A stretch of DNA of 64,000 nucleotides from contig JAJEKV010000008.1 in assembly GCA_021234155.1 (NCBI GenBank), positions 7,094,445 to 7,158,444 on the forward strand, written 5' to 3'. Source of the DNA: Isoetes taiwanensis. Its lineage: Eukaryota > Streptophyta > Lycopodiopsida > Isoetales > Isoetaceae. Below the pieces are notes generated by a model that was not told where the DNA came from, did not search any database, and was given only the letters and a program-made list of their open reading frames with translations. Positions 25,817 to 64,000 of this stretch are shown here, piece by piece. Within the stretch, counting starts at the first letter, position 1. Each line of letters begins with the position of its first letter. The position numbers were made by a program, and so were the translations under genes.

Positions 25817-25868
25817 TGTGACAAGCCTGCCGAGTTGACCCTTTTGGCAACTCGGATCTTGTCTAAAC

Positions 25869-41300: not shown

Positions 41301-41656
41301 GGGTTCTACCGCTCACGGCAATTCGATCTCAAAGGACTCAAAGACAATTGCTCAAGCGGAGCCGGATGGAAAAAAGAACTGCTTGTAGCATCGAAACAAC
41401 TCGGCCTAAAAACCTTGTTATCTAAAGAATATCGGGAGGGAGGAGCACGTTCCTCCCGTTCCGCCGCCTTGATCATGGCTAAGCCGTTTAACTCAGAAAA
41501 ATTGCACCCAGTGTAACGGTCGGGGAGAGAAGTTTGCCGATAAACCAATATTTGATCTGAAAACACGTTTCTGGTTTCAAAACTCACGCTGCTCACGCCG
41601 GAAAAAGTGTTACACCGGCGTGAGCCATGATGGCAAAAACATTTTAAATAAGTAGA
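38322..41656 (-). mobile_element. Helitron H3 of array, chimeric, 3335 bp
   Basis: Bounded by CTAG at 38322 and TCTACTTATTT at 41656 (minus sense). From 38322 to about 41272 it matches the 3' part of H5 (46954 to about 49888). From about 41273 to 41656 it matches the 5' terminal 385 bp of H1 instead (from about 32647). The switch point lies at ATATAACA|TAAATCGAAAATG. It is thus a recombinant with one family's 5' end and another's body. No coding domain was recognised. Confidence 0.93.
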
Positions 41657-44600
41657 CTAGTAAACGTGTGCCCGGCGTTGCCGGGCTAATGTCCTAGCAT
41701 GTACTTTTACTCGGCGTTAATGTCTATAAGTGCAACTTCAACAACAAAATATTTTGTCATTGGTAAGAATGGATATTATTTGCTTTTGTCACTGTAACGA
41801 ATAAGCTTACAGTTCTTTTAGTGTCATTTTGGTGTGGCGAAGGAGGTTTGGTTTAATATTACAGTCAATTTTAATTGGTGAGATTAGGATTTGATTCCTG
41901 AATTACGTGATTATGCTTTGCAAAAATCCAATAGTTTAATTGTGAGCAGGAGCTGGGCTCAGGCAATTCCCGCGTGTTGGGACACAAGGCTGGAGCAAGT
42001 AGCTGGACATTATTGAGAATATAGCGTTGCCGGGCTAATGTTCTGGCATGCGTTTTTACTCGGTCTTTGACGTCCATATGTGCAACTTCAACAACAAATA
42101 TTGGCAAGAATGGACTTTATTTGCTTTTATAATTACTTTTGTTATTGAAATCGTCTAATTATACTATCATCAATGTATTAACAAAAATTGAGCCTGTGTT
42201 ATGCCTTTGATCACCATGTCGCCAAATGCGAGTTGTCAAGAGTTATCATGTCTCCAGTGTTACTTATGTCATACACACTCTTGGTTCATGGTATGATTAG
42301 GAACGAAACTACCACGCTCATGTGCATGGAGTAGCAAGCGTGATAAAAAAAATAGATACAGAAATGTAAAACACAGAATTTTGTTATGGTTCATTGGCGT
42401 ACTTTAGTTCATGATGGAAATCTAAATATGCATCTCCACATGGTGCAACATCACCAAGGGCCTAATCTTGTAATTTTTTTATGCTCCCATGATATCTCCA
42501 CTTCTCCTATAGGTAACATCTTAGTCAAGGTAAAATCATTGATTCGAACTGCGTAAGATGTCTCACGACTATCAAACATGTGAGACAACTCATCTCGAAG
42601 GTAGACTTGTGTACTGGGATTATATACTGCCTCAGGACTCCATGATTTTTCCAACATATTGTGAGTTCTTTTGCTATTTATATGGCAATTCACCAGTTTA
42701 TAGTGTCATTTGTCATCTGCTAAAAGAGATAAACAATTGGAGGTTATTTAAAGCACTATATTACCCAATAAGTAGATACATGTACTCCATCCTCCACCTA
42801 CCTCTCTCAAAGCACACCTGCGCAACAACATTCCCTTGAGAAGTCGTCGTTTAGTTGGATGTAGTGCTCTAGACAACCTCGTTGGTGCAAAATATTTCTT
42901 TGACCTTTGCAATGAGCTCCTCAATTTCCACGTCCACTACCCCATGCACATAAGCATGGTATTTTCGTTCCCAATGACACCATAACTCAAAAAATGTGTG
43001 CAAAGCCTTATTATGCGCATAAAGGCTTGTGGCCTTCCAAATAAGATTGATTTAATTTGTATCCTTTACGACTCCTATGGCGTTCATGCCAAAGTAGTTT
43101 TATTTCTCTATGTACGGTTCAAATGTCATTAGACTTTGCAAATACTCAAAATGTTGGAACATCTTAATTCTATTTAGAAAATGCGACTTGACACTTCCAA
43201 TTTAGGTAGATTAGCTAATTCTATTCAAAACTTGCAAGTTGCAAGCAATTTTCCTTAATATATAGACAACACCTTGCAAGTAGTTTTCTTTAATATATAA
43301 ACATGCATCGATCAGGCGATGTAGAATAAGATAAAAGCAACTTGGGAGCTATTTACCGTGTTCTTTCAAAGGACAATATGGGAATGTAAAACATCCAATC
43401 CAAGCCCAAAAATCATGAATCACAATCAAAGCAGATGCCCTGAAATGTTTATCCAAAATTTATGTCTGCAGGACCTACTCAAAATGAAATGCCTTTGCTA
43501 ATTTAATTATCCCATGTCTTGTTTTTTTTTTAAGTTCCACTATATTTATATTCACTATACAACACCAGATAATGCAACAGATAATGCAACAGCTTGAAGT
43601 TAAGATCCTACTTGCGTATTGAAAGTGCGGGAAGCTCTTGATGTTTTGCAAAAATAGATCACAAATTGCAAGCATTATTGTTCTATAATAGGTACTCGCA
43701 TAAAGATTCCTTTATCCTCATAAGTGGAAGTTCAACATTGATGCATGCCCATGTATCCTATGCACAAAACAACCAATTAGAAGCTCATATATTCCTGTGC
43801 ATGTGGGCGTGATTCTTCCTATACAACCAACAAAACTAAGGGCTTGTTCTTCGAATATGATCAAACCTATGAACTGCAATTGTACGAAGGTACATAAAGA
43901 AAAGAAGCTTGAAACAATGAAATATAAAGAAGTATCTTGTTTCTTGATCTGAAAACTATATTCTCTTAGCAATCTGAAAATTCTGGACAAAGGGGTTGCA
44001 GTAGCAGGCGTACCACAAACAGAAGCAGCAGGACCTTAAGTTGTCCAAGATGTTATCTCTGGTGTACCAGGTGGATAGTGTTACAAAGGAAGCAGAGATA
44101 TTTCAGCCTCTTGAAAACCGAGCTGTATATCTATTCCGTGTACTTGAATAGAGAATATGATGTAAAATGTATCTAGTTACAAAGCAACAGGCAGATATTA
44201 TTACGAAGGAAGCGGAGACATTTGAGCCTCTTGAAAACGGAGGTGCATATCTTACTTGAACAGGCAGAATATGATGTAAAGTGTATCTGCATTTATAAAG
44301 CACTAAGATTGTGGAGTCTTGGAGATTTTTATGTCAATACAACGATGATGTCACTTGTTTAAAGTATATATTCATGTACAGAGCCGTTGCATATATTTTC
44401 CTGATTTGGGCCATGTCGTCAGCAAGTTTGCCCATTGCGACCTTTACAAAGACATAAATTCTCTTGCAAGAAAGGAATTACCTGAAACCTTGCCGAATGA
44501 CAGATTGCAGCACAGGAAGGGTCATGAATTTGTTGATAAAATATCCTGTTGATAAAAACTTATGTTAAGCATATGCAAGGAACATAAATGAAGATGAGGG

Positions 44601-46953
44601 AGAGAATAAGCTTGACAAAAGCAAATGCAGCAAAGATGATAAATATTTTGGATAAAACATCCCTGCGAAAAAAAAAAATTCCTTGTTGTCAGATTTCAAA
44701 TGAGAGATTGAACCGAATATGTTTTCAAAGTAAATGTAGCATGCTTGAATGGTTGTTGACCTGCATTAGAATGATATTCTGAAACAGAGAATTCTGAAAC
44801 AAAGAATCAAATCTTAGAGAAGGAAACGAAGCAGAAAAGAAGCAATCACAAATGCAGAACTCAGAAATCATGAAGTGGCTAAAATGCAATAAGAAATAAG
44901 AGATGACAACTTCATAGCATGCATGATTTGAAGTCCCTGCCGTCTTAAAGATAAGCAAGATGTAAACCATATGATTGAGCATAATCAAAACACAGACCAG
45001 AATTACAATCACTAATAAACATACTATGCTTGTCTGCAATAAAAAAAAGGCCAGTCTTAGATTTAATAAACTCTTTCTCAACTGGGTTTATTTAAGATTG
45101 ACCGGCTAACCTGTAATTTACAGCGTAAATTAACCTATGTTAAGTTGATTACCTGCTATGGCTGCCGTGGGAAGCAAAGCAAAAGATGAACTTCAATGCC
45201 AGTGAGAAAGATTTAAAAATAGATGTTTATCTTTTATAAATAGGCAAAACATGTAACAATCACCAGATTATATAGAACCCCACTAAGAGGCATCTGCAGA
45301 AATCATTTTACCTATCCAGAAAGGGCTGCAATTCCATGAAGCTCCAGCCTATTGGTATATGGACTCTTAACACTGCAAGCAGACCACAAAGGTAGCTTAG
45401 AAGCACACTTTAAAATGCCAAAATTATAATAGACGAAAAAAGACATTGGAAAACTACCTTCTGCCTAGCTTCAACTGCAAAAATATTGAAGCGGCCAGAA
45501 CAGCTTCGTTTCTTGAACATAGAAAGAGAAAAGAACTCTGCTACTGCCTGGGATTCACCATTTTGAAGCCCTGCAAAAGAATAAACCTGAAAGGTGGAGG
45601 CGAAGCGCTGCAAACATAACTTGGGTTTGCAGCAAATGTCAAATGAGGAAAACGAAGATCTTTTTGTGTGAATATTGTGAAAAACTTGCAATTGCATTTG
45701 GAAAGTTAGCACCTCTCCTAGTACAACTATCAGAGCAACATGATCTGGTCTGGAATCTGAGCTCATTATTTGGAGAACGGGCATGATTCTGCCACAAAAA
45801 TTGCATAAAAATTTGATCTTACTATTGTTGGAGAAGTCATCAGACTTGACAGAATCTCATCCTTCAAGAGTCATAATACAAACATAATGCAATCTCATCC
45901 TTATTGGGATTACATAACGCAAATTACAGACCAACACAGAGAAGGAAATCTGACAAATAAGTTAATAAATCATGTGGTCTAAGCATAGGAATCCGATAAG
46001 GGAGAATGGGAGAGCCCAGGATGAAATGCTTTACTATAATTGAACAAAAAAGAAGCTGAAAAAACTGTATTGAGGGAAGCCCCCTTACAAAAAGTACCTG
46101 CAAAAATCTTCAGAAATGGACTGCCATTCTTCAAGCAGGTGAGAACATGCCTCTGGCTCTGCAAAATGCTGCCGAAATCCTCTAAAAAATACTCAAAATG
46201 CTGCGGAAATCCTCTTCAAAATCTGCAAAATCCTCTGCTAGCAAAGGACATGCACGTGGCTCAAACTCCTGTGGCCTGAAGCCTGAAGAAAAAGAAAGCA
46301 GTTAAGAGAAAAAAGACTGACTGATGGGAATCCAAAAGCAAACATGGATGTAAGATGGAAAATACGGTACCTTAAGCAAACTCCTACTATTGTAGTGACT
46401 GCTCTGCTTCAACGCCTGCAGATATAAAACACAAACACGATTTAAGTAAACGATTTCTTCTGCTGTAAGCCCCTTGTTTGTAGAGCTTAGTGAGATCCAT
46501 AATGAATAGGAATACTACTGCAGAGCAATATTACACACTTCCTCTGCTTCAATGACTGCAAATGCACAGACTGCTTCCGTGGAAGCTTCAAAATCCGCTT
46601 AAAGAACTCTCAAAATGCTTCAAATCTGCTTCAAAATGCTGATTGAAGAGGAATCTCAAAATCCAAAATCCGTTTGCTTGCTTGCTGCCGCTTTCTTGCT
46701 GGCTCTGCCTTTCCTAAAAACCCTAAACCCATCCCTGATCAAATCGGCATGCGTTCATCATAGTGAGCAGGCTGCCGTTTCGGAGAGGAATAGGGGCTCG
46801 GAAAAAAAAACAAACGGCTAGGAAAAAAGAGGCGAGAAATAGGCCGGAAAATAAACAAAGGTTCCAAAAATCACGCTTTTGGCCCAAAAATCACGCCGGA
46901 AAAATGCGGACACCGGCGAGCCCATGATGGCAAAAACATTTTAAATAAGTAGA
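41657..46953 (-). mobile_element. Helitron H4 of array, 5297 bp
   Basis: Near-identical second copy of H2, with clean termini: 3' hairpin AGCCCGGCAACGCCGGGC plus CTAG at 41657 and TCTACTTATTT at 46953 (minus sense). It abuts H3 and H5 with no spacer. No Rep/helicase motif was found. The H2-H3 and H4-H5 pairs repeat the same order, suggesting that a dimer was copied. Confidence 0.95.
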
Positions 46954-49900
46954 CTAGTAAACGTGTGCCCGGCGTTGCCGGGCTAATGTCCTGGCATGTA
47001 AGAATCACTCTAAAATTAATCACTTCCAACATCAAAATGTTGATATTACTGCAACTCCTGATTCCTCTTGTCCCTAGCATCACTATACGGTACCGATTTC
47101 CAGCAAAGCAGATGCAGCCAACCAATTTCTGGGCCTGTGTATCTTATTTCTAATCTTGTTTGTCAGCAAAACTGCAGATAAGATTTTTTTACAACTTATC
47201 TTGGAGTTTTGCTTGGGAAGAAGCAAGCAACCACTGATAGTACTGCAAGGAAACTGGAATAAACAATCGATCCTCCATGTATGTTGTATCTTGAAGGTCC
47301 AAGAACAAAGCATGTCACTTTTTCATAGGTATGGATATCAAGCTCTCTTGCAAAATGAAAGCCAGACAAAACAGAAGCCAGATACAGAGAAAGAATATTT
47401 ATACTTGTAAATATCACGGCCCTGCCTAATGGCTTTCTGCAGAGTCAAATATCATTTACATGGCCTATCTAAGCTTCCGTTTCCAAAGATTTGAGCACCA
47501 ACGAATTTGGGGGCCCTCATATAGAATCCACCCCTGCACAACACGAAAAGAATGACATGAAAAGAATGACATGTAACAACTGGGTTGGGCTAGGGAAAAA
47601 CATGAAACATATCAACAAAACGGACCTTACATGTTTCAGAAAATGCGCAGGGCCACGTCTCTGTTTGTGAATGATCCCTCCCTTGAAAATCAAGATAAAA
47701 AAATCTACCAAACTTTTTAAGTAAGTAGAAATTAGATGGTGAACATTTTAGCAGCTTGAGGCAGAAAACGATTATGGGTACCAAGTTTTCAGCTGTGAAA
47801 TTGAAATGCAGGTGCTTTAAAAGTGGGAATTCTGCATAGTGAAAGGAGGCTGCCAGTAAAGCCAAAATATGCAGCGAAATTATGCAAAATGTGCTCTATA
47901 ACCAACTCGTATGTCAAATAAACACCCACTTGCTAATGATAATGGGAATCCCGAGATGGGGTGGAATTTTCTGTATTTACTTCAATTTCTAAGATGCTTT
48001 GGATCTGCATGCAAATTCTAATCCTGGGAAAATGATTAACAGTAGATGGAGCTCTACAATTAACACGGATGTCAAATAAAAGCCTGCTACTAATAATTAG
48101 AAATTCCGAAGGAGAAATTCCCCTTACTGTAGCAGAATCATCAATTGACATCAAAGCAAGCCCATTCCTATTTTAGAAAATGAAGGGACATCTGCCAGTT
48201 AATAGAAATGAGAACAAAGTGAATGCAAACATGTCCTTGAAACAAAAACACGGAGTACAACAACATTTTTGAAAGATAATGTCTTGCAGCTCATACTTTA
48301 AGATTTGGAAGCGATGTTCAAATGGAACTTCCTTAATTTAGACGCATGTGCATCACTACAAAACCGTCGAGATTTGGATTTTAAGCATGGATATCTAAAG
48401 CAAATGGACCCATGCATCTGGAATGTTGTAAGAGCTTATGCTAGACATGGTTAAGCTTCTGTATTATCAGCTTTCACTCTTATAGTTTGCGAAAAAGCAC
48501 CCAACCTTAAGCTAAATTAAAAAATTCTCTGTCAAACGTTTCGGCATATAGTCTGACATGCTATGAACAGCGGATGCATCGTTCCTAAGGACTCTGTTCT
48601 TGCCTCAAAGTTCGCTGCTTACAGGTTGGATGGTTCAAAAAATTAAAGCACAAAATAATATCTCGGTTCCTTTTGAGCTGATTAATCTGAATATAGAATG
48701 TAGTCAACGTCTGAATAAAAATAAAGAAACTGAAGGTAATATGTGGTGCTAAGGAAGAAGTAAGAATGTTTATCTCAGATATTATTTCATATCTTGTTTC
48801 ACTTTTCTGTTTAACCTAACAGAGCATGCATCTAAAAACATACATTTGCAAACACCCCTAAATACATCTGCAAATACATCTTGCATTGTGATCTAAAATA
48901 TACCTGAGGCAATTCTGTTATACTTGTTTGGGGAGAAATAGATCTATTGCAGCAAAATAATGCAAAACTTCAGGGCTCCTGCAGAAAATACGAATCATCA
49001 AGAACTACATCTGAGCATTGCCAGATCAAACTTGGAGTATGGTCAATTCCAGTTACCTTATGTATAAGCATTTGGACCATTCACCAAATCTCCTGTTAGA
49101 TCATTCACCAAGTCTCAAGTTAGTCTGCACCAAAGAAAGAAATATATGCAATACATCAGATGTAGTAGCTACATCAATATAATACATCAAATGTAGTAGC
49201 TACATCAGTGGCTGAGAAGGATAATTATTAATGCTTACAGGGAAAGCAAAAGCCTAGTACGTTGTCTATGTACCATCTTAAACACAGAGAGCAACGCATG
49301 ATATCATTCTTTGAGGACTGAACATAGTGGCTTCGCTACTGAAGACCTAAACATAAATGATGAACCGAAGCTAAAAAGGAACTGCAAGTAATTTCTTATC
49401 TGTTACCTGATGCCGGAGCTCCATGAGACCTCTAGAATTTAATTTGCTTGCGCCTATGGCCTTGAATGAAATATGGAAGGCAGAGGAGGAGGAGAATCGT
49501 CATCCAGCTTGAGAACCACCTCTACATACTTGAATGAAGACGTATAGCAAGCAAATCAAATTGAGAGATTTGGTAGCTTTTTGGAAGATCAATATAAAAA
49601 TATTGCTTTCCAACAAATTTGGATTTCAATGCAATTTCACATTGCAATGCCAAGCCAAGCCTAAATGCAGATTCAATAACCTTGGCATTCAGGACTGGTA
49701 GGCCTCCAGCATACAGCACACAGACAGGACAAACATGGGCATTGGTCCGTCCTCATACAGACAGGACAAACATGAACATTGATTCGTCCCCATACTGGAA
49801 AATGCAGGAACAGAAGACATTTACTTGAATTAGGATCAATCAAGTCTAAAGATTTCTAAAACATCTATGCTTCCTGCTTATATAACACAGAAATTTATGC

Positions 49901-51777
49901 ATGCAACTCTAACTTAGCAATAGAATACCTTTAAAGCCTGAGGAAAAATATGACTATCCGCTCTCATCACCTGCAAAACAGAGGGTTGCTATTGATGGAA
50001 AAACACAAACTGCAAAGAGCCAAAGTAAACAACTGAAAACACCTGGAATAGAAATGCTGCAAATGCCAAAAAAAGACATAATACCCAATAGAAATACCCA
50101 AAATAAGGTACGTTTTTTTGACTCAGAATACCTATAGGATAACAGATAAAAAGAAGGCTACAGCATAACACAACTTAGCCTTGCACAAATCTAGTCCAAG
50201 ATCTAGTATATTATAACCTATGAAAATATTAAATGCGAATCAATACAGACTAACAAAAATGTTTCAAGAAAAAGGAATGATTTTTACGTTGCTATTTAGG
50301 CCTTGGCATTAGATATGCCACTCAATGGCTTGTCAAAAAAATCATCCTTCAAATGTGAAAAGATCTCCTATTGTTTGTTTGTTTGTTGCCACAGCCAATG
50401 AAATATAGTTAGAAACATGTAATCAAGCAAGAATGACCAGAAAATAAGAATGACCAGAATTGTTCTTGCCAAAAGAGATTACCTTTGTATTGAAATCGGA
50501 GTCGTTGATGCATGCTTCACTTTGTCCCGTGGTAAGAAATTGAGCTCAGATCAACAAAGCCCATTTAAACAGATTTAAAGAGTTGGACAGGCACACGTGA
50601 GCAAATCCAAACCTCATTGCACCCAAAACGAAAGCCTCAAACCATCAACATGATTAGAAGGTGTGCTGCTGGCAATAATGTGTACTGCACCTAACAATTG
50701 CCTCCCTAAAAAAAACCGCAGCAAAAGTCTGAAGAAAGGTAGAGGAAACCAACGCTGAGCAATCTGTTTTAAAGATGAAGAAGGTAACTCGATTCGCCCA
50801 TAATCATATTGTAAAACGCTCTGCCCTGTGGAAGAAAACAGCTCTTCAGGATTGGGCAGACAATCAGACAGGGGAAAAGAAAAACATAGTAAAACACAAA
50901 CCGTAAGATAAAATACTTTTTTGCCAGATTGAGCAAATAAACTACCGATATGCTCCAAGACAACAGTTCCCTTACCCTGCAATCGACTCTCCATTTCCCC
51001 AACCACCTCCCATTTTCGTAATCAGCTATTAGTCTGGGCCAAGCATTTGCTCCTGCTTTTGCTTGCTTGCTCCCATATCTAGACAAATAGAACAGCTGGA
51101 ATAGCCCTTATTTCACCATCTTCCGTTACTTGCGATGCTATACCAGCATGAGTCCAAGAAGTACCTTGAGAAGCCAAGACACCATTGTTGCAAAAGGCCA
51201 GGCACTCAATCCATGCCACAATCCTGAGACTTGCAGAAGACTGTAACGGGGAAAGACCTCTGTAAGCATCCACCGCCATGTTATAAGGAAACGCGGCAAT
51301 ACTACGGAAAAAAAAAGAGATGAAGTACCATCCTTGCCTGAGCTCGGTTATGGCGACAGGGCCGCCACAAAAAATTGTGTAGATAGCTGCTCACTCACCG
51401 TTCAAAATTTTCGTATGATTATATTGTAAGGGGGAAAGGAAATAATAGCCGGAAATTGACAACTGAGCCTGAATTAGGCAGCAAGAAGCTAAGAATCGAC
51501 GTTTGCTTCGCTTTAGCCTGCGGAACTCCTGCGGAACTGGTGGCTTTGCTCTGCTTTGCGAACTCTGCCCGCCATGTTCCTTAACCTACGGGCACCGCCC
51601 ACAACCAAGAGAGATAAAGTTGCTGCCGGCAAAATAAACAGAAACAAAAAAATATGTTAGGAAGAAGAAGTTTGGCCGGAAAACCAGTTTTTGGCCGGAA
51701 AAAGCGTTACATCCGGCGGCCGGAAAGCGCACATCCGGCGTGAGAGAGAAAGGGCAAAAACTTTTTAAGTAAGTAGA
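46954..51777 (-). mobile_element. Helitron H5 of array, 4824 bp
   Basis: The 5'-most member. TCTACTTACTTAAAAAG-type start at 51777 next to host A (T on plus at 51778), and 3' hairpin plus CTAG at 46954. Its 3' 2.9 kb is shared with H3. The 5' 1.9 kb (about 49889-51777) is unique in this window. It begins with GC-rich subterminal repeats of CCGGCG/GGCCGG type. No recognised gene; frames at 50614-51279 are unlike known proteins. Confidence 0.93.
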
Positions 51778-52816
51778 TACATGAATAATAACAGATGAAA
51801 ATATCAGAGTAATATTTTATGACCAACAATAATGTACACAATACATCATATGTTCTCCCAATGGAAAAATCTTACTTGCAATCTAGTTTATTGAACCATC
51901 TGCTTAGAACGCATAAAAACATCAAAGCATGGAGCAAGAAACCTGGTTACCTGCAGTAGAACCAAAGGACAGTTAGCCTTAATCAGGGTAAAAGCCTAAG
52001 CTACTAACAGGTAAGCAGTAGGTTTCTTGGGTATTCCCCTTCACCATGACTTTAATGGTATTGTTGTCAGCATGTAATCATTGAGAATACCTCAGATATC
52101 CAAGACTCATGTGCAGCATAATAGCAGAAAGTTATAGTTACCCAACAGATTTTGAATATGGGTAACTTAATGTGGTCTTTAGACGTCTATTAGATACCAA
52201 GTAGGGTCCTCCCTTACCATGGAGTCCCCTCTAAAATCTTACGCTCACATACAATCATAATAAGCTAAACCCTAAGCCATCATCAGATAATACAATTTAA
52301 AGCCAAACCCTACCACTATGCACATGAATCGGCCTAGCTTATACACATTATAAAAACCCACGATAGTTATTGGATCAGCCCCATTTTTGTTTTCCTTCCA
52401 AACTAGTTAGACTACCAAATAATAAACCCGAATGTTGGTGACCAGCATCAGCTTATACATGTTTCAATTAAACCATTATTTTTTCCAGCATAAATATCTA
52501 GTGAATCATTACATCTTATAGATCTGTCCGGGTACATCACAAAATACTTCCAATACTATTCACAACAACTAGATAAGGATATTATTATATGCATTATTTC
52601 TACCCACATTTTCCTTCTAAATGGTTTACAGGAAATCTGATTCTTCATGCATACATAAATAATACCATGAACATAGTTCATATCAGCCTTATTCTGTGTG
52701 AAACAGATCTAGCAATGTCTCCACACAATATGTAATCACAGCATAAATCTTTAGAAGAAATAACCAGTAGATTAATCACTTAACTGTTTGCTAATAATTT
52801 CATCTGGAATATATTC
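51778..52816. other. PLE copy 1, 3' non-coding region
   Basis: About 1 kb downstream (minus sense) of ORF3, repeated almost exactly at 58377-59416. On the minus strand it includes GCTTAGGGTTTAGC (about 52279-52265), which contains one and a half plant telomere-like units. No array of them is present. No reading frame was recognised. Confidence 0.6.
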
Positions 52817-53263
52817 TTAACAGTATGTAAAATCAGAGTCTACATGGTAAGCATTAACCTGAATAGTTTTAGCTCCAGAGGGAAGTCCCATGTGCTGTTT
52901 TGCTGCTGCCTTGTTGCTCATTTCGTCCTTGGATTTGGTCTCCTTGTTGGCTAAGGATTCGTTACTAGCTTTGGTCTTGGGGATCTGCTCAACTATCTCA
53001 GCCTTCTTCTTAATCCCTTCACCTTCTTTTGCACTGATGCACTCATTCTCAATGGCTTTGTTGGGCACATCCATAGCTACCCCTTGTTTTGCTGTGCTTG
53101 CAGCCTTACGAAATTCCCAGATCTTTTTCCTCTTGGGAGCCAGACTAGCATCCATTTCAAGCTTCCTTCTGGTGGACATGTTAAGATCACCTTTCTTCCT
53201 GCCCATGCTCAGGGGCAGTAGACAGGATTCATTTGTGGAGGACGGAATCAACAATGCGTGCAT
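52817..53263 (-). CDS. PLE ORF3, small Lys-rich protein (copy 1)
   Basis: An open frame of up to 148 residues; the likely start is the Met of MGRKKGDLNMSTRRK (about 53206). It is rich in Lys, Glu and Ala, with a basic PKRKK cluster that could be a nuclear localisation signal. It ends VDSDFTYC and has no Cys/His finger. The same frame is kept in copy 2 (59417-59806) with substitutions mostly near the N-terminus. It lies about 1 kb after the RT frame on the same strand. Conservation between copies is weak evidence because the copies are nearly identical overall. The function is unknown. It could be an exon of a longer protein. Confidence 0.45.
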   Translation of the reverse strand: MHALLIPSSTNESCLLPLSMGRKKGDLNMSTRRKLEMDASLAPKRKKIWEFRKAASTAKQGVAMDVPNKAIENECISAKEGEGIKKKAEIVEQIPKTKASNESLANKETKSKDEMSNKAAAKQHMGLPSGAKTIQVNAYHVDSDFTYC

Positions 53264-54289
53264 CTATCTGTGCTGTTATAAACACCTGATCCCAGTCCTT
53301 AGCAATGGTAACATCACACTAGTCGTGTCCTTAAGCTGAGCCTGCCTGTCTCTGTATTATCAACAAATGCAAATACCGTCTTTATTTTCCGGAAATTCGT
53401 CTTGACGGAAGTGTACTAGTTCTCCATCCATTCACGATGCATGCTGCAACCGGAACCCTAAAACTTAGAAATCGTCATATAGCATTTTAACTTGCTAATG
53501 TGCTTTACTTTTCGACATATATTTTCCAGTAAGTCTATCCCTAAGTGTTAGCTAAGGTCTTTTTGTGCTAACATGTCATGCATTTAAGCCATGGTATTAT
53601 GTTATCCATATGCCATACATCCTATACACTTGTTCCCTATAGCCTAGTATATACCATTTTCATCTTTGCTCAGAACGTTGTAGCGTTGTAGCTTTTACTG
53701 TAGCGTATTTCTACATGTAATTATGTCTTTAAAGTCAGTACTAGCAAAGGTCTGTTGTGTCACCATGTCTGGTGTTTTATTCTTGGTTTTATGCTCCTTC
53801 TTGTGCTACATATATTGTAAATTAGGTCCCCTTTGCAGGGTGTAGACCATATCCATCCTTGCTCTATATGTTGTAACCATTACCTCAACTTATTTATGTA
53901 TATACTGTTAATATGTCAAAGCACCTTGTCCATTTATCTTAATAAAAAAATCCTACCTCCGACCGTTGTTCGGTGGGCCATTGCAAGTTATGCCTGAAAA
54001 GGTCAATCTAACTGCACTGCATACAGCAAGGTGTGTAGAGCCTTGCTGTAGCAAGGGCCCTACCTCACAATGCTTATTTTTGTTATCTCTACACATTATT
54101 TGCTAATACATCAATCTCTTCAGGGTATGTAATATGCCTCCAGCATTGTAAAGACCATCCAGGAGTTGTATCTCCTGTATATATCTCAGGATTATTCTGT
54201 CCACTATCTTATTTCACACCTTATCTATCAAAGGTAGTTACCAAGTAAACAATATCTCTGGTTGTCTTGTCACTTTGTTCACCATGTAT
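53264..54289. other. PLE copy 1, spacer between RT ORF2 and ORF3
   Basis: About 1 kb with no supported reading frame on either strand, repeated in copy 2 (59807-60895). It may hold introns or regulatory sequence of the element. I see nothing more specific. Confidence 0.5.
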
Positions 54290-56354
54290 TTATTCCATTT
54301 CACAACTCTTTTCATGCATCAGCATCAGCCTTTTCAGGGTATGTATCATATCCCCAACGTTGTATAAAAACTCGTGGAATTGTTCTTCCCGCAGATACTT
54401 TAGGACTGTTTCAAGGTACCTCTAACTTGCCAAAACCATTCTTGGCAAAGGTATCCATTAGGTTAAGAATATCTCTGGCAGCCATGTCATGGTCTGAATT
54501 ACACATAAGGTAGAATTTGTGAAATTATTACCTTTAGTGCATGCCAATATGGTCTGCAACTATCAGCTTTCACAAATTTGTATACCTCGAAAGGTAATTT
54601 GTTTCTCTTATCATACCTTGAAATCTCGAACAGACCTCTACTTCTATCTATCACCTTAATGTTGACATTGAGGAAGTTAATACTGTAGCCATGCTTTTCA
54701 TCTCCATCAATTACATATTCTGTTTCATCTTTAATGCCCAGATGCTGCATGTTGTATACAGTAGTCTCAGCTTCCTTATCAAAGAATTCAGTAATGTTAT
54801 TTGCATTCAGTATACTAAGGTCATCAATATATCTTGCAGCGTTTTCAAATTTCTTAATATCATTGAATCTCCCTTTGTGAGCAAGTTTTAACATGAACCT
54901 TAATTCGTGCCAAGCAAGGTATAAATTACACCATGCTGGGCTACAAGAAAATCCCATAGGGATGCCTTTCTTCTGACGCCATATATCTTTTCCAGATTGT
55001 AGGTAGCAATTTGATAATAACCACCCATTTATTGCCTTAAGTTTGTCCTTTTCCACCACGGACCAGCATGTTTTGTTCAAGTCTTTTTTGAGGTGTCTTT
55101 CCCATTTTATCTCAAACTTTTCAGCATTGCCTTTTATCAGCATGTGTAACAGCTGGTGCTCTTTTCTCATATGTTCCCAAGCAAGTTCAATGACATCATT
55201 CATGATTTCAATGATACCGTCATCACCGAATACTGGTATGTTTTCATAACATTTTGTTATATCTGCTGAGAAAACATTGCTAATTTTGTATGGGAGATTC
55301 AGGACAACTTCGTATGAGGAGCTAACCATCCATGATGCATTGATTTTGTTTCTGTTGAACAGCCTGTATGGGGCAGTTTGCCTTAGGCATAATTGAGGCC
55401 ACATCTCAATAATGTTACTTAACACTGCAGTGATCCATTGCGCACAATATGAGAAAATAGAGTTACTAGCATTTGTCAGCCATCTATATTCAGCCTGTGG
55501 GCTTTGTAACAAGCCATAAGATACGGTAATTTACCATTTTTGTTCTGTTCCATGCCCAAGGATTCCTGTATATGATTGTTGCATATTTCCTTTATTTGCT
55601 CAGCACTGCTATGAGTTAACTCAAAGTCGGGTCCATCAAGTCTTGCTCTTGCCATTTCACGGATGTGTTTTTGGCATATAAAGGTCGGGTTGTTACTGGC
55701 TTTGTCTAAGCCGTGATATAAAAGATTATGAGTTAACCATTCAATGTTCTTTCTGACAAGTTTGTCATCCCATAGAAATCTTTTGTTAGGAAGCTTTTCC
55801 TTTACTTGTACTATTTCACTATGGGCATACTGCAGTAGCATCAAAGTGATCTGACCAGTATCCATGTCTGTTAACTCCATGGTCTCGTACTTATGAACTT
55901 CCCAAAATTGTTTGCAGAGTTTGAGAAATTCCTCTCTAAACTTCTGTATACTAAGGCCACAATCAGGGATGTGGTTCAGACCATTGGCAAATGCCTTTCT
56001 TAGTTTCATGCAATGGACTATTCCCAAGTCTGTTGTTCTTACATGCCCTATATTAGGGTCAATGTATTTAGCCATGTTGGGATTTAAGCATGGACATCTA
56101 GCCTCATTGTCTTCAGCAAAGACAGCAAAGGGTTTATAAACTTTTTCCTTTATCTGATCAACATACCTCCATGCAAAAGTTGTGTTCTCTACCAGTTCCA
56201 CACCTTTTTCCTGGGAAAAGATCTTTCTGATATCAATCTTGTCTAATGCCTTACATAAAAAAGTAAAGTGCACAATTTTTCTATCATTAGCATTTTTAAT
56301 GTTTTTCAGATGTCTTTTCCCGCTGGAATCTTTAACAATACATCTGGTCTGCAC
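54290..56354 (-). CDS. PLE ORF2, reverse transcriptase (copy 1, frame-broken)
   Basis: A reverse transcriptase of Penelope-like type. Motif A is FSADITKCYENIP (catalytic Asp), motif B is GIPMGFSCSPAWCNLYLAWHE, and motif C is ARYIDDLSILN (Asp pair). The block INFLNVNIKV matches the 'PFLDV' signature that follows in PLEs. About 250 residues precede motif A, with a CPCLNPNM segment. There is no GIY-YIG endonuclease after the RT. Only about 110 residues follow the FLNV block before the stop. The frame is open from 56354 with no early ATG; a stop precedes GTGCAG|AC, an intron acceptor look-alike. Copy 1 has one base fewer than copy 2 near 55495 (a frameshift) and a 5-base gap near 54507. Both may be consensus errors. 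Confidence 0.72.
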
Positions 56355-56500
56355 CTACATAACACAGTTTATTAGTTTAAAAGGCGTAATCAGACATTAT
56401 CTACCTATTAATTTATAACACTAATTCAGTAAAATAGTCATTGTATTGAAAGAACAGCAAAAGCTGATATGACAAATGCCTTGTACTATAGAACAGTACA

Positions 56501-57910
56501 TTATTCTTGGGATTCCATCACAATTTCAATATCAGCTGGAGTGTTTTCCTCAAGAGTGATGATCTTGTTCCCATCTTTGGTTATTGTGCAGGCCTCCTCC
56601 TTGTTTCCAGCCCCATTAGCAGTGGTATGCTTATCAGGAATGCTGCTACATTTGTTCAAAGTGGGATCCACAGTAATTCTTGGAGCTAACCTCGGTGTAA
56701 ACTTAGGTGCAGGTTTACTATACTTGGTTTTGAAGACATTCTTCTTTTTGTAACCTTGATTTTTAGCACTCTGATCAACATTGTCCAGCAGAAAGGAGAT
56801 AGGTTTAACCGTCTTCTCTACTATATCTGCCATTCTATTATTGCCAAAAAGACTCTTCAGGTTAGCTCCAGAATCTTCAGCATACTTCAAAGTCATATTG
56901 ATCATGACTTTTCGAACCTCTAGATACGAAATATAGCCAATGACAGCAGGTTTCAGAACTTTATTCAGAAGCTTGGATATAGCTACCATTTTCATAATAG
57001 GTGTGGAGTCTTCATAGACGTCATCCAAGTGGTTTAGTAGAAACCATATGCCATGGTCCAGCCAAATGATGCCACAATGACATGTGGAATTCTTGTTCTT
57101 GAAGCATTTACACTTAAAATATGGGCAGTGCGTGCGCCACATCCTTTTCAAAAAGAAATCATCCCTTGTTTCATTTGGAAAGGCCATGTGGCCTTTTTGG
57201 CAGACCTGTATAGCTGGGTCCTTAATGCATACCTCATCAAAGAATGCCATATCAAAGTTAACATCAGGGTTAATATATGAGAATGTTTTTTCAAGCCTGG
57301 TGGCAGTAGCCTTAGCATTTAAGATCTCATCTTTTGTGATACCTGCAAGTGCAATCCAAGTCTCCAGATTGATGGGTGCTAAGGCACCAAAATTCTGGCT
57401 TTTCCAGATGGCGTGATCATAGGCAGCAGCTAGACCTTCAACAGATTGTTCACCAATGATAGGAAAGCATGAAGAATTACCAAGGGTCAGATTGGGTACC
57501 TCCTCTTGTTCACCAAGATTATGTTGCTGTTCATGGTCACTGTTATCCATAACAGGAGACTGTATGTTGAAGAAATCTGGTTCAATGAGATCTTTATCAG
57601 AAAATAAACATGTATCATCATCATTGCCCGGTAGGTCTTCATTTCCCTTTGTAGGATTAAATGATGGATAAATTTCATTACACTCCTCCAAGGTCGTGAG
57701 TCCAATCATGAAATTTCTGGCAATATCATCCTCTTGACAGGTCCTTTGATACAAGATGCTATTCATATCATTGTATATTTCCAGAATGGCTCCTTTGCAT
57801 TTATTATATTCAAAATTGTTCTTCTTCATGGTATGGAGGAGCTTGAACCAACCATTGAATCCTAAAAATGTGATCGGAGATCTTGTCTTGTCAATAAGAT
57901 TTGTCTCCAT
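56501..57910 (-). CDS. PLE ORF1, 469-aa protein with Cys cluster (copy 1)
   Basis: A complete frame upstream of the RT. The first 140 residues are acidic and low in structure. The middle contains HCPYFKCKCFKNKNSTCHCG, a cluster of five Cys with His that could bind zinc. Around residues 300-390 it is helical, and the end is Lys/Pro/Thr-rich (YKKKNVFKTKYSKPAPKF), suggesting nucleic-acid binding. There is no GIY-YIG, protease or known gag domain by eye. It is nearly identical in copy 2 up to the window edge. Some endonuclease-lacking PLEs carry an extra upstream ORF, which makes this plausible as an element protein. Its function is unknown. It may be spliced to ORF2. Confidence 0.65.
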   Translation of the reverse strand: METNLIDKTRSPITFLGFNGWFKLLHTMKKNNFEYNKCKGAILEIYNDMNSILYQRTCQEDDIARNFMIGLTTLEECNEIYPSFNPTKGNEDLPGNDDDTCLFSDKDLIEPDFFNIQSPVMDNSDHEQQHNLGEQEEVPNLTLGNSSCFPIIGEQSVEGLAAAYDHAIWKSQNFGALAPINLETWIALAGITKDEILNAKATATRLEKTFSYINPDVNFDMAFFDEVCIKDPAIQVCQKGHMAFPNETRDDFFLKRMWRTHCPYFKCKCFKNKNSTCHCGIIWLDHGIWFLLNHLDDVYEDSTPIMKMVAISKLLNKVLKPAVIGYISYLEVRKVMINMTLKYAEDSGANLKSLFGNNRMADIVEKTVKPISFLLDNVDQSAKNQGYKKKNVFKTKYSKPAPKFTPRLAPRITVDPTLNKCSSIPDKHTTANGAGNKEEACTITKDGNKIITLEENTPADIEIVMESQE

Positions 57911-58376
57911 GAATGTGATATAATCATGGATTTCCCTTATTTTCGATGCAGGCCACTATTGTTTGCACGGCCGATTTAATACAATCAATCCGCATTCATG
58001 ATATTTAAAGAACCTAAGTTCTTTGATCCGAAGAATTATGGTCATCTTTCTTGGCCTCATCCTATAATCATGAGCAAATGAATTAGAGTAAGTTTATCCT
58101 GTAGTAATAGTCCGGATCACGGTTTCTAGTAGAACTAGAAAACCTGAATTAAAAATAAAAAACACCAAATCTGTTTGCGGACTACCATACTTGATATTTC
58201 CATTTGGAAATACCAAGTTCCGCTTTGGCGACCCTAGAAAACTGCCGGAAACAATTTCCTAGGCGGGATAAGGACTTAACACAATTAATTTGTATCAACA
58301 GTACACTTATTTCCACAGAAATTTTTATTTCCATAAATAATACATTCAAGATATCTCAAATGCATCCTACATACTA
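57911..58376. other. PLE leader of copy 1 and 3' tail of copy 2; empty Helitron site
   Basis: 58158-58376 matches 29774-29997, the outermost 3' tail of copy 1, so the copy junction lies near 58157. At 58376/58377 the sequence CATACTA|TACATGAATAA is the unoccupied counterpart of the Helitron-array insertion in copy 1. The minus-strand leader of copy 1 (58157-57911) has no frame and no clear promoter motif. Confidence 0.8.
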
Positions 58377-59416
58377 TACATGAATAATAACAGATGAAAA
58401 TATCAGAGTAATATTTTATGACCAACAATCAATGTACACAATACATCATATGTTCTCCCAATGGAAAAATCTTACTTGCAATCTAGTTTATTGAACCATC
58501 TGCTTAGAACGCATAAAAACATCAAAGCATGGAGCAAGAAACACGGTTACCCGTAAAGAGAACCAAAGGACAGTTAGCCTTAATCAGGGTAAAAGCCTAA
58601 GCTACTAACAGGTAAGCAGTAGGTTTCTTGGGTATCCCCTTCACCATGACTTTAATGGTATTGTTGTCAGCATGTAATCATTGAGAATACCTCAGATATC
58701 CAAGACTCATGTGCAGCATAATAGCAGAAAGTTATAGTTACCCAACAGATTTTGAATATGGGTAACTTAATGTGGTCTTTAGACGTCTATTAGATACCAA
58801 GTAGGGTCCTCCCTTACCATGGAGTCCCCTCTAAAATCTTCTGCTCACATACAATCATAATAAGCTAAACCCTAAGCCATCTACTGTATAATACAATTTA
58901 AAGCCAAACCCTACCACTATGCACATGAATCAGCTAGCTTATACACATTATGTGCAGCCACGATAGTTATTGGATCAGCCCCATTTTTGTTTTCCTTCCA
59001 AACTAGTTAGACTACCAAATAATAAACCCGAATGTTGGTGACCAGCATCAGCTTATACATGTTTCAATTAAACCATTATTTTTTCCAGCATAAATATCTA
59101 GTGAATCATTACATCTTATAGATCTGTCCGGGTACATCACAAAATACTTCCAATACTATTCACAACAACTAGATAAGGATATTATTATATGCATTATTTC
59201 TACCCACATTTTCCTTCTAAATGGTTTACAGGAAATCTGATTCTTCATGCATACATAAATAATACCATGAACATAGTTCATATCAGCCTTATTCTGTGTG
59301 AAACAGATCTAGCAATGTCTCAACACAATATGTAATCACAGCATAAATCTTTAGAAGAAATAACCAGTAGATTAATCACTTAACTGTTTGCTAATAATTT
59401 CATCTGGAATATATTC

Positions 59417-59806
59417 TTAACAGTATGTAAAATCAGAGTCTACATGGTAAGCATTAACCTGAATAGTTTTAGCTCCAGAGGGAAGTCCCATGTGCTGTTT
59501 TGCTGCTGCCTTGTTGCTAATTTCGTCCTTGGATTTGGTCTCCTTGTTGGCTAAGGATTCGTTACTAGCTTTGGTCTTGGGGATCTGCTCAACTATCTCA
59601 GCCTTCTTCTTAATCCCTTCACCTTCTTTTGCACTGATGCACTCATTCTCAATGGCTTTGTTGGGCACATCCATAGCTACCCCTTGTTTTTTTGCTTGCT
59701 TTGCCTTACGAAAAATTCGGATCTTTTTCCTCTTGGGAGCCGGACTAGCATCCATTTCAAGCTTCCTTCCGGTGGACATGTTAAGATCACCTTTCTTCCC
59801 GCCCAT
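59417..59806 (-). CDS. PLE ORF3, Lys-rich protein (copy 2)
   Basis: A 129-residue version of the ORF3 protein, starting MGGKKGDLNMSTGRK. It is identical to copy 1 over the C-terminal 90 residues. It differs around residues 30-45 (FRKAKQAKKQGV against FRKAASTAKQGV), where the DNA differs at CAG/CTG-type words. No known domain; function unknown. Confidence 0.45.
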   Translation of the reverse strand: MGGKKGDLNMSTGRKLEMDASPAPKRKKIRIFRKAKQAKKQGVAMDVPNKAIENECISAKEGEGIKKKAEIVEQIPKTKASNESLANKETKSKDEISNKAAAKQHMGLPSGAKTIQVNAYHVDSDFTYC

Positions 59807-60895
59807 GCTCGGGGGCGTGAGGCGAGATTCATTTGTGGAGGGCCGGAATCAACAATGCGTGCATCTATCAGTCTTTGTTATAAACACCGATCCCGGTCCT
59901 TAGCAATGGTAACATCACACTAGTCGTGTCCTTAAAAGCCGAGCACACTTTGTCTACGTATTATCAACAAATGCAAATACCGTCTTTATTTTCCGGAAAT
60001 TCGTCTTGACGGAAGTGTACTAGTTCTCCATCCATTCACGATGCATGCTGCAACCGGAACCCTAAAACTTAGAAATCGTCATATAGCATTTTAACTTGCT
60101 AATGTGCTTTACTTTTCGACATATATTTTCCAGTAAGTCTATCCCTAAGTGTTAGCTAAGGTCTTTTTGTGCTAACATGTCATGCATTTAAGCCATAGTA
60201 TTATGTTATCCATATGCCATACATCCTATACACTTGTTCCCTATAGCCTAGTATATACCATTTTCATCTTTGCTCAGAACGTTGTAGCGTTGTAGCTTTT
60301 ACTGTAGCGTATTTCTACATGTAATTATGTCTTTAAAGTCAGTACTAGCAAAGGTCTGTTGTGTCACCATGTCTGGTGTTTTATTCTTGGTTTTATGCTC
60401 CTTCTTGTGCTACATATATTGTAAATTAGGTCCCCTTTGCAGGGTGTAGACCATATCCATCCTTGCTCTATATGTTGTAACCATTACCTCAACTTATTTA
60501 TGTATATACTGTTAATATGTCAAAGCACCTTGTCCATTTATCTTAATAAAAAAATCCTACCTCCGACCGTTGTTCGGTGGGCCATTGCAAGTTATGCCTG
60601 AAAAGGTCAATCTAACTGCACTGCATACAGCAAGGTGTGTAGGGCCTTGCTGTAGCAAGGGCCCTACCTCACAATGCTTATTTTTGTTATCTCTACACAT
60701 TATTTGCTAATACATCAATCTCTTCAGGGTATGTAATATGCCTCCAGCATTGTAAAGACCATCCAGGAGTTGTATCTCCTGTATATATCTCAGGATTATT
60801 CTGTCCACTATCTTATTTCCAACACCTTATCTATCAAAGGTAGTTACCAAGTAAACAATATCTCTGGTTGTCTTGTCACTTTGTTCACCATGTAT
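59807..60895. other. PLE copy 2, spacer between RT ORF2 and ORF3
   Basis: Nearly exact repeat of 53264-54289. No supported frame. Confidence 0.5.
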
Positions 60896-62986
60896 TTATT
60901 CCATTTCACAACTCTTTTCATGCATCAGCATCAGCCTTTTCAGGGTATGTATCATATCCCCAACGTTGTATAAAACTCCAGGGAATTGTTCTTCCTGCAG
61001 ATACTTTAGGACTGTTCTGCGTACCTCTAACTTGCCAAAACCATTCTTGGCAAAGGTATCCATTAGGTTAAGAATATCTCTGGCAGCCATGTCATGGTCT
61101 GAATGTGCGTACACATAAGGTAGAATTTGTGAAATTATTACCTTTAGTGCATGCCAATATGGTCTGCAACTATCAGCTTTCACAAATTTGTATACATCGA
61201 AAGGTAATTTGTTTCTCTTATCATACCTTGAAATCTCGAACAGACCTCTACTTCTATCTATCACCTTAATGTTGACATTGAGGAAGTTAATACTGTAGCC
61301 ATGCTTTTCATCTCCATCAATTACATATTCTGTTTCATCTTTAATGCCCAGATGCTGCATGTTGTATACAGTAGTCTCAGCTTCCTTATCAAAGAATTCA
61401 GTAATGTTATTTGCATTCAGTATACTAAGGTCATCAATATATCTTGCAGCGTTTTCAAATTTCTTAATATCATTGAATCTCCCTTTGTGAGCAAGTTTTA
61501 ACATGAACCTTAATTAGGTGCCAAGCAAGGTATAAATTACACCATCTTTGGGCTACAAGAAAATCCCATAGAGATGCCTTTCTTCGACGCCATATATCTT
61601 TTCAGATTGTAGGTAGCAATTTGATAATAACCACCCATTTATTGCCTTAAGTTTGTCCTTTTCCACCACGGACCAGCATGTTTTGTTCAAGTCTTTTTTG
61701 AGGTGTCTTTCCCATTTTATCTCAAACTTTTCAGCATTGCCTTTTATCAGCATGTGTAACAGCTGGTGCTCTTTTCTCATATGTTCCCAAGCAAGTTCAA
61801 TGACATCATTCATGATTTCAATGATACCGTCATCACCGAATACTGGTATGTTTTCATAACATTTTGTTATATCTGCTGAGAAAACATTGCTAATTTTGTA
61901 TGGGAGATTCAGGACAACTTCGTATGAGGAGCTAACCATCCATGATTCATTGATTTTGTTTCTGTTGAACAGCCTGTATGGGGCAGTTTGCCTTAGGCAT
62001 AATTGAGGCCACATCTCAATAATGTTACTTAACACTGCAGTGATCCATTGCGCACAATATGAGAAAATAGAGTTACTAGCATTTGTCAGCCATCTATATT
62101 CAGCCTTGTGGGCTTTGTAACAAGCCATAAGATACGGTAATTTACCATTTTTGTTCTGTTCCATGCCCAAGGATTCCTGTATATGATTGTTGCATATTTC
62201 CTTTATTTGCTCAGCACTGTTATGAGTTAACTCAAAGTCGGGTCCATCAAGTCTTGCTCTTGCCATTTCACGGATGTGTTTTTGGCATATAAAGGTCGGG
62301 TTGTTACTGGCTTTGTCTAAGCCAGATATAAACAGATTATGAGTTAACCATTCAATGTTCTTTCTGACAAGTTTGTCATCCCATAGAAATCTTTTGTTAG
62401 GAAGCTTTTCCTTTACTTGTACTATTTCACTATGGGCATACTGCAGTAGCATCAAAGTGATCTGACCAGTATCCATGTCTGTTAACTCCATGGTCTCGTA
62501 CTTATGAACTTCCCAAAATTGTTTGCAGAGTTTGAGAAATTCCTCTCTAAACTTCTGTATACTAAGGCCACAATCAGGGATGTGGTTCAGACCATTGGCA
62601 AATGCCTTTCTTAGTTTCATGCAATGGACTATTCCCAAGTCTGTTGTTCTTACATGCCCTATATTAGGGTCAATGTATTTAGCCATGTTGGGATTTAAGC
62701 ATGGACATCTAGCCTCATTGTCTTCAGCAAAGATAGCAAAGGGTTTATAAACTTTTTCCTTTATCTGATCAACATACCTCCATGCAAAAGTTGTGTTCTC
62801 TACCAGTTCCACACCTTTTTCTTGTAGAGTTTCCTCTAATATCAAGGAAAAGATCTTTCTGATATCAATCTTGTCTAATGCCTTACATAAAAAAGTAAAG
62901 TGCACAATTTTTCTATCATTAGCATTTTTAATGTTTTTCAGATGTCTTTTCCCGCTGGAATCTTTAACAATACATCTGGTCTGCAC
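60896..62986 (-). CDS. PLE ORF2, reverse transcriptase (copy 2, frame-broken)
   Basis: Same protein as in copy 1. The frame is continuous from 62986 through motif A and up to the approach of motif B. A shift near 61585-61560 (TTCGACGCC here, TTCTGACGCC in copy 1) breaks it, and the C-terminal 202 residues with YIDDL and the FLNV block continue in another frame to the stop at 60896. Copy 2 lacks the one-base deletion seen in copy 1 near 55495 and carries 21 extra in-frame bases near 62822-62843 (seven residues). Because each copy is intact where the other is broken, the family protein was recently functional or the breaks are sequencing errors. Confidence 0.72.
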
Positions 62987-63132
62987 CTACATAACACAGT
63001 TTATTAGTTTAAAAGGCGTAATCAGACATTATCTACCTATTAATTTATAACACTAATTCAGTAAAATAGTCATTGTATTGAAAGAACAGCAAAAGCTGAT
63101 ATGACAAATGCCTTGTACTATAGAACAGTACA

Positions 63133-64000
63133 TTATTCTTGGGATTCCATCACAATTTCAATATCAGCTGGAGTGTTTTCCTCAAGAGTGATGATCTTGT
63201 TCCCATCTTTGGTTATTGTGCAGGCCTCCTCCTTGTTTCCAGCCCCATTAGCAGTGGTATGCTTATCAGGAATGCTGCTACATTTGTTCAAAGTGGGATC
63301 CACAGTAATTCTTGGAGCTAACCTCGGTGTAAACTTAGGTGCAGGTTTACTATACTTGGTTTTGAAGACATTCTTCTTTTTGTAACCTTGATTTTTAGCA
63401 CTCTGATCAACATTGTCCAGCAGAAAGGAGATAGGTTTAACCGTCTTCTCTACTATATCTGCCATTCTATTATTGCCAAAAAGACTCCTCAGGTTAGCTC
63501 CAGAATCTTCAGCATACTTCAAAGTCATATTGATCATGACTTTTCGAACCTCTAGATACGAAATATAGCCAATGACAGCAGGTTTCATAACTTTATTCAG
63601 AAGCTTGGATATAGCTACCATTTTCATAATAGGTGTGGAGTCTTCATAGACGTCATCCAAGTGGTTTAGTAGAAACCATATGCCATGGTCCAGCCCAATG
63701 ATGCCACAATGACATGTGGAATTCTTGTTCTTGAAGCATTTACACTTAAAATATGGGCAGTGCGTGCGCCACATCCTTTTCAAAAAGAAATCATCCCTTG
63801 TTTCATTTGGAAAGGCCATGTGGCCTCTTTGGCAGACCTGTATAGCTGGGTCCTTAATGCATACCTCATCAAAGAATGCCATATCAAAGTTAACATCAGG
63901 GTTAATATATGAGAATGTTTTTTCAAGCCTGGTGGCAGTAGCCTTAGCATTTAAGATCTCATCTTTTGTGATACCTGCAAGTGCAATCCAAGTCTCCAGA
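63133..64000 (-). CDS. PLE ORF1 (copy 2, N-terminus outside window)
   Basis: Open from its stop at 63133 to the window edge, covering the C-terminal 289 or so residues of ORF1, including the Cys cluster and the Lys/Pro-rich tail. There are only a few substitutions against copy 1 (for example Lys to Arg near the segment SGANL-SLFGNN). The start codon should lie beyond 64000. Confidence 0.65.
   Translation of the reverse strand, partial: LETWIALAGITKDEILNAKATATRLEKTFSYINPDVNFDMAFFDEVCIKDPAIQVCQRGHMAFPNETRDDFFLKRMWRTHCPYFKCKCFKNKNSTCHCGIIGLDHGIWFLLNHLDDVYEDSTPIMKMVAISKLLNKVMKPAVIGYISYLEVRKVMINMTLKYAEDSGANLRSLFGNNRMADIVEKTVKPISFLLDNVDQSAKNQGYKKKNVFKTKYSKPAPKFTPRLAPRITVDPTLNKCSSIPDKHTTANGAGNKEEACTITKDGNKIITLEENTPADIEIVMESQE

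Follow-up and report, generated by a model that had tools for sequence, protein, structure and literature searches.

An apparently endonuclease-deficient, probably Penelope-like retroelement family of the quillwort Isoetes taiwanensis lies at internal T-tracts

It is not yet settled how retroelements spread when they lack an endonuclease; the usual answers are telomere ends and chance breaks. Here, we describe a retroelement from the quillwort Isoetes taiwanensis that raises this question for sites inside chromosomes, with two copies at 51777-64000 of a 64,000-nt stretch of the genome (C1089:7094445-7158444; the whole stretch is called the window below). The element is probably an endonuclease-deficient, Penelope-like retroelement of a lycophyte that belongs to a large family, and whose RNA carries a U-run that pairs with the ends of genomic A-tracts.

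The two copies (51777-57368 and 58376-64000) are 97.8% identical, about 6.6 kb apart and both on the minus strand, in line with the tandem organisation proposed in a preliminary description made from the letters of the window. Each unit consists of a direct terminal repeat of about 1.9-2.4 kb, open reading frame (ORF) 1, ORF2 and the repeat again. From the repeat anatomy read in relatives, the order in the window is therefore ORF1-ORF2-repeat-ORF1-ORF2-repeat. Copy 2 is the upstream copy and is clipped at the window edge; the complete repeat in the window measures 2.4 kb, and the last repeat, that of copy 1, is truncated at 51777, with about 225 nt missing relative to copy 2.

ORF2 holds the motifs ADITKCYENIP, GIPMGFSCSPAWCN, RYIDDL and INFLNV quoted in the preliminary description, and its motifs D..KCYENIP, GIPMG...SP, RY(I/M)DDL and NFLN(V/I), with KGLNHIP at the N terminus, have what may be a Penelope-like look. 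For the reverse TRANSCRIPTASE assignment, the reverse transcriptase (RT) piece of copy 1 matched Pfam RVT_1 at E 1.8e-5, under the curated cut-off, and an NCBIfam group II RT model at E 9.4e-7, far under its cut-off. RVT_1 matches 12 of 13 aligned ORF2 sequences, two of the 13 being pieces from the window, and the aspartates of motifs A and C are kept in all or nearly all sequences of this alignment. An alignment of ORF2 with TERT from the same genome, a group II RT and a plasmid RT was too poor and unreliable for a tree; membership among the Penelope-like elements (PLEs) is suggested by the motifs together with the architecture.

ORF2 appears to encode an RT without a convincing endonuclease, as first described, and a diverged or unknown nuclease could be present. 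No match to Pfam GIY-YIG, integrase or RNase H was found in the window pieces or the ORFs of relatives, none to integrase, protease or RNase H in ORF1 or ORF2, and none to an endonuclease domain, a trait of long interspersed nuclear elements (LINEs), in the window pieces or ORF2 sequences. A linked endonuclease was sought near the RT, and the shortest distance between any of 121 scored GIY-YIG places and any of 119 scored RT places is 32.6 kb. A GIY-YIG enzyme acting in trans was rejected, as the top places among the 121 proved to be dispersed ORFs of their own. Weak matches to other Pfam families (FliS, Aida_C2, DUF4528 and similar) were taken as chance, and a single-sequence fold of the RT piece (mean predicted local distance difference test score 39.7) was not used. 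The dispersed GIY-YIG ORFs include a family of about 115-156 aa in L077-L083 (for example L079:1468-1812) and a second family in L081, L085 and L086; several lie near a Pif1/Helitron-like helicase recognised by eye, and in L079, L080 and L082 the ORF sits about 1 kb downstream of a fragment of such a helicase.

The family was surveyed in the whole assembly (1,658,258,908 bases in 1110 contigs). The RT piece as query gave 3466 first-look candidates, 119 of which were scored; these are 54-100% identical, lie on 70 contigs, and by hand count about 50 have an open frame of at least 680 aa without a stop in the match. Similarly, 91 places were scored for ORF1 out of 3531 first-look candidates. For 48 of these 91, a scored RT follows 0-5 kb downstream in the same orientation, and for two a scored RT lies close by but on the opposite side or strand. 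Selection on ORF2 is strongly purifying: among eight ORF2 sequences, 9 of 28 pairs yielded a dN/dS (the ratio of nonsynonymous to synonymous substitution rates), which lay at 0.05-0.09, and the other 19 were saturated; the four pairs with dS below 1 gave 0.08-0.09. Several long-separated lineages have therefore been preserved by selection at the protein level. For ORF1, six pairs gave one value, 0.20. Searches of IMG/VR and GTDB confirmed no relative, and DNA patterns for a PLE motif in IMG/VR returned 0 and 5 stretches, none of them an RT by eye.

Anatomy was read in five 10-kb loci (L039-L043), where ORF2 is 691-695 aa long except in L040 (634 aa). Near-equal direct terminal repeats with fixed ends are present in L039 (2002/2006 bp, 96.3% identical), L041 (2034/2005 bp, 96.3%) and L042 (1894/1893 bp, 98.1%); identity between terminal repeats within L039-L042 is 95.6-98.1%, and L040 and L043 are rearranged. 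A T-run opens each repeat and another closes it; inside the element, GGAGG(T/A)AGG stands before the opening run. Eight pairs of scored RT places lie less than 25 kb apart, three of these at 5985-6610 bp, and C922:226000-266499 (L089-L093) holds a five-unit array in which two ORF1+ORF2 units alternate with three lacking ORF2, a dimer of about 12.2 kb being repeated at 96%. The units without ORF2 hold only residues 1-426 of ORF1 and about 3 kb of other sequence; these may be non-autonomous partners.

Where the family inserts was read from the T-runs of its repeats. Of 18 repeat starts measured, 11 were outer and 7 inner; seven of the 11 go back to a search with the L042 repeat start, a query that held no T-run and 8 of whose 11 matches were used. 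Outer 5' junctions carry a T-run in 10 of 11 cases (28, 30, 21, 15, 15, 12, 21, 18, 26 and 13 nt), and inner repeat starts have runs of 5, 6, 11, 7, 7, 7 and 7 nt. At the other end, 20 repeat ends (15 outer, 5 inner) were taken from 40 matches to the L042 repeat end (rows 3-24 minus two), each fetched match reaching the query end or lying within six bases of it; all 15 outer 3' junctions have a T-run, of 10-27 nt, and the five inner repeat ends have 7-8 nt. L061 and L062 are segmental duplicates and should count once. As background, the 51.7 kb of the window outside the element contain only five T-runs of at least 10 nt on both strands. Since the outer runs are longer than the inner ones, the target contributed T's.

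One insertion site was reconstructed. On C1095, the T-run that holds the element belongs to a dispersed 242-bp repeat, which begins in the flank after the insertion and for which 40 of 429 first-look candidates were scored; 7 of 8 other fetched copies of this repeat start behind a T-rich run that is itself preceded by unrelated sequence (L103 does not), as expected for the antisense view of a poly(A) tail like that of a short interspersed nuclear element. An 11-bp sequence, GTCTCTAAATG, lies just before the T-run on the element's 5' side and again at the far end of the 242-bp repeat. The simplest account is that the 242-bp repeat inserted first, making this duplication, and that the element then entered its tail without a further one; no target duplication beyond the T's was found at this site. 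A few other 9-mers shared within flank pairs were dismissed as not adjacent or of low complexity, and the C1078 flanks were left unused, its two inserts being segmental duplicates whose 5' end was not reached. The 5' flanks of L039 and L042 are nearly identical to each other and resemble the terminal repeat of another subfamily at its 3' end, as would be seen if elements also inserted into one another's terminal T-runs.

A link to telomeres, mentioned in the preliminary description for PLEs that lack an endonuclease, is not supported for this family. The 119 scored copies were mapped to their 70 contigs, and no telomere-type repeats were found in 77 partly overlapping sequences (271,021 bases). 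As these are missing and the junctions lie in internal T-tracts, a telomeric location was rejected.

Directly after the T-run that ends a repeat, at the junction to ORF1, lies an 8-bp hairpin with a 3-nt loop. It was compared in eight distinct sequences from 11 junctions viewed, the rest being identical. With a structure drawn up after sight of these same sequences, pairing holds in 93.8% of cells, with a covariation score of 0.42; neither value is reached by any of 500 shuffles or of 6 slides. Four of the eight pairs change on both sides (reached by 12 of 500 shuffles); five further pair types are no more than chance (270 of 500 shuffles).

At the junction equivalent to the one where a PLE of Anolis starts reverse transcription, this element has a U-run and a hairpin, and its relatives are inserted in A/T tracts; pairing of the U-run with A-tract 3' ends is proposed on these grounds. 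In this model, RNA read through the repeat-ORF1 junction would fold the hairpin, which would be recognised by the ORF2 protein, and the U-run beside it would pair with the 3' end that a break or nick leaves in a genomic A-tract, such as the poly(A) tail of another retroelement. This DNA end would prime the first strand, synthesis would run back through the unit to the U-run that opens a repeat, and the A-rich cDNA end would pair with the remaining T-strand. The product would be a repeat-ORF1-ORF2-repeat insertion framed by T's with no other target duplication. The DNA end, the template strand and the contact between protein and RNA are all inferred. Tentatively, an endonuclease-free element may thus choose its sites by pairing between U-run and A-tract and colonise poly(A) tails across the genome, as an internal-site counterpart of telomere-pairing PLEs.

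Several observations weigh against this reading. The profile matches of ORF2 are to generic models (RVT_1, group II RT) and fall under curated cut-offs. A phmmer search of the PDB with the RT piece returned two chains of the GIY-YIG enzyme I-TevI, aligned to 35 residues that lie between motifs A and B (weak, E 0.16 and 0.42). These were judged chance because the profile of 13 ORF2 sequences finds no PDB chain up to E 10, and a GIY-YIG domain within ORF2 was rejected; by eye, the GIY/YIG residues of this stretch are not kept across relatives. No T-tract junction comes from the window copies themselves, whose downstream end is truncated and whose upstream end lies beyond the window; the outer 5' junction of L068 is not clean, with broken runs of 8 and 6; and the presence of T's at the 3' junctions is partly built in, as the query ended in T's, while their extra outer length is not. 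A pre-insertion site was seen in one of eight flank pairs (that on C1095), and the other seven had no such signature. No hammerhead ribozyme was found by Rfam at the gathering threshold in the window; there was likewise none among 10 weak Rfam matches in L039-L043. PLEs are often 5' truncated, according to a published account (PMC9033089), but complete inserts here have fixed 5' ends. Finally, the hairpin has no G-U pairs and would fold as well from one strand as from the other, so that either may be the template.

The antisense strand, moreover, ends in AATAAAAAAA, and the antisense RNA could itself be the template: a LINE endonuclease acting in trans would nick a T-tract, and the 3' end of the T-strand would prime on the A-run at the repeat start, whose antisense is TAATAAAAAAA. 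The location of insertions in T-tracts agrees with this, as does a PLE paper of 2013, which makes the case that the structures of some PLEs suit an antisense template (PMC3846280). We nevertheless think it rather unlikely, given that the conserved hairpin lies at the opposite end and that the target is not duplicated beyond the T's at the one reconstructable site. LINE-type inserts are also often 5' truncated, whereas complete inserts of this family have fixed ends. Those fixed ends, along with two near-equal direct repeats of about 2 kb in three of the loci read, would suit a retrotransposon with true long terminal repeats (LTRs) made by template jumps, whose DNA copy is pasted into T-tracts by recombination or repair. 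Equal direct terminal repeats are indeed an LTR-retrotransposon trait, but the lack of any integrase, protease or RNase H match in ORF1 or ORF2, ends that are T-runs in place of TG...CA, and a target on C1095 that is not duplicated beyond the T's make this improbable. T-run ends could also arise from microhomology repair of any DNA intermediate. It is very improbable, in our view, that placement is passive, with insertion at chance breaks, end joining aided by T-runs and T-rich sites kept as harmless: the element's own repeat starts and ends in T-runs, so that microhomology is built in, but 10 of 11 outer 5' junctions lie in T-runs of at least 12 nt, far above the background density, and outer runs exceed inner ones, so the target brought T's.

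The proposed pairing of U-run and A-tract resembles known systems in several respects. Endonuclease-deficient PLEs (Athena of rotifers and members in fungi, protists, Selaginella, Pinus and Picea) share an RT without endonuclease, two ORFs in 4-6 kb units (PMC6431247) and head-to-tail arrays, with a lycophyte member known (PMC9033089, PMC12477314). The quillwort family differs in lying at internal T-tracts and not telomeres, in a third ORF housed in terminal repeats of about 2 kb, and in the hammerhead ribozyme that was not found; the plant members are likened here by description. That PLEs of plants are scarcely described, as had been assumed, is qualified by a review listing endonuclease-deficient ones for Selaginella moellendorffii, Pinus taeda and Picea abies (PMC9033089), those of Selaginella being described in another paper as telomere-associated (PMC12477314). 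For rotifer endonuclease-deficient PLEs (Terminons/Athena of bdelloids), one source proposes that repeats at the RNA end are exposed beside a ribozyme fold and pair with telomeric overhangs (PMC6431247), so that an RNA end beside a fold would again meet a target DNA end; that target is a G-rich telomeric overhang, as opposed to an internal A/T tract here. Poseidon, the PLE of Anolis carolinensis, has a tandem pseudo-LTR (pLTR) organisation, and reverse transcription of its RNA begins internally, in a stem-loop where pLTR and ORF meet (PMC11167929); it differs in having a GIY-YIG endonuclease, a hammerhead ribozyme and one ORF. Tandem or partial-tandem copies and direct pseudo-LTRs, both PLE traits, are found in the quillwort element, and the GIY-YIG domain that accompanies the RT in canonical PLEs is not. 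Priming at T-tracts would be shared with LINE-1 (PMC3649969), but the tract here runs the opposite way if the sense strand is the template, and the quillwort element gave no convincing endonuclease match.

The features of the window are collected in Table 1. The preliminary description was borne out in that ORF1 and ORF3 recur and match no Pfam family. Its ORF1 start, however, lies downstream of the true start of homology, which begins upstream of the earlier-annotated Met in copy 1 and is frameshifted there, and ORF3 actually lies inside the terminal repeat. ORF1 is open at full length in L041-L043 (525-532 aa) and broken in L039 and L040; neither its sequence nor its profile finds a PDB chain up to E 10. 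Judged by composition, ORF1 is probably a nucleic-acid-binding partner and ORF3 probably a small basic accessory protein. ORF3 was matched in 37 of 44 sequences searched, several of them the same copy, and the KKGDLN core is kept in all 30 matches read in detail, which were chosen because they matched. ORF3 is present in both repeats of L039, L040, L041 and L043; in L042 one repeat shows it by BLAST and the other by core motif.

ORF1 and ORF2 may be made from spliced RNA, since their homology starts without an ATG after acceptor-like sites. ORF2 homology begins directly after TGTAGG or TGCAGG in 13 of 13 copies, with no ATG and in phase 0 in the six copies read through, and an acceptor-like site precedes ORF1 in 4 of 6 aligned copies. 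Introns are known in some PLEs. Against splicing, no common donor was found, candidates in the repeat being confined to single subfamilies. ORF3 as a common 5' exon was rejected: GTAAG follows its core only in some subfamilies, is missing in many copies, and is in phase 1 where phase 0 is needed.

Table 1. Features of the retroelement copies in the window
Feature	Position	Strand	Basis or remark
Direct terminal repeat, copy 2 (T-run to T-run; doubles as upstream repeat of copy 1)	58151..60554	-	start T7 at 60554 after GGAGGTAGGA; end by homology with repeats of L039-L042
Downstream direct terminal repeat, copy 1, 3'-truncated	51777..53950	-	start T7 at 53950; similarity to copy 2 ends at 51777
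8-bp hairpin just past repeat-end T-run, repeat-to-ORF1 junction	58123..58141	-	covariation, 4/8 pairs changed on both sides, 8 distinct sequences
ORF1, copy 1, 469 aa open, Cys cluster CX4CXCX7CXC; homology continues upstream towards 58061 via frameshifts	56501..57910	-	
ORF1, copy 2, clipped at window edge; 519-aa open frame in genome	63133..64000	-	
ORF2, copy 1, reverse transcriptase; frame changes near 55497 and 54500	54290..56354	-	
ORF2, copy 2, reverse transcriptase; short out-of-frame stretch near 61518-61604, two stops	60896..62986	-	
Splice-acceptor-like TATGTAG immediately 5' of ORF2	56355..56361	-	TGTAGG or TGCAGG in 13/13 aligned copies
Splice-acceptor-like TTATAG 5' of ORF1 homology	58062..58067	-	similar site in 4/6 aligned copies
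ORF3, copy 1, from core MGRKKGDLNM onward, within terminal repeat	52817..53206	-	
ORF3, copy 2, within terminal repeat	59417..59806	-	

A noncoding island, GGTAACC.GGTTTCTTGCTC, is conserved close to where the terminal repeat ends; it lies at 51932-51951 in the window and is clear in 5 of 6 aligned sequences. Elsewhere in the window, tandem-repeat matches at 34943-49208 recur with a constant spacing of about 8.62 kb (34943/43566, 36155/44776, 38919/47541, 40458/49078), so that this part seems to be a direct duplication. Short repeats at 21943 and 22394 reappear as reverse complements at 30639 and 30169, which suggests an element of about 8.7 kb with inverted-repeat ends at 21943-30667. By eye, the minus-strand open frame at 3048-4046 is plant-laccase-like.

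Endonuclease-deficient PLEs are known, including those of a lycophyte; what may be new is insertion at internal T-tracts instead of chromosome ends. No report of T-tract insertion by such elements was found in the open-access literature, papers of 2007, 2016 and 2021 lying outside that coverage, and the word Penelope is absent from the main text of the two Isoetes genome papers searched. Because the family is large, conserved and dispersed, and its members share both a T-tract target and a hairpin conserved at the junction, an answer by base pairing to the question of how retroelements spread without an endonuclease becomes directly testable. It further suggests that big Penelope-like families can exist in plants other than seed plants, and that standard annotation may miss them.

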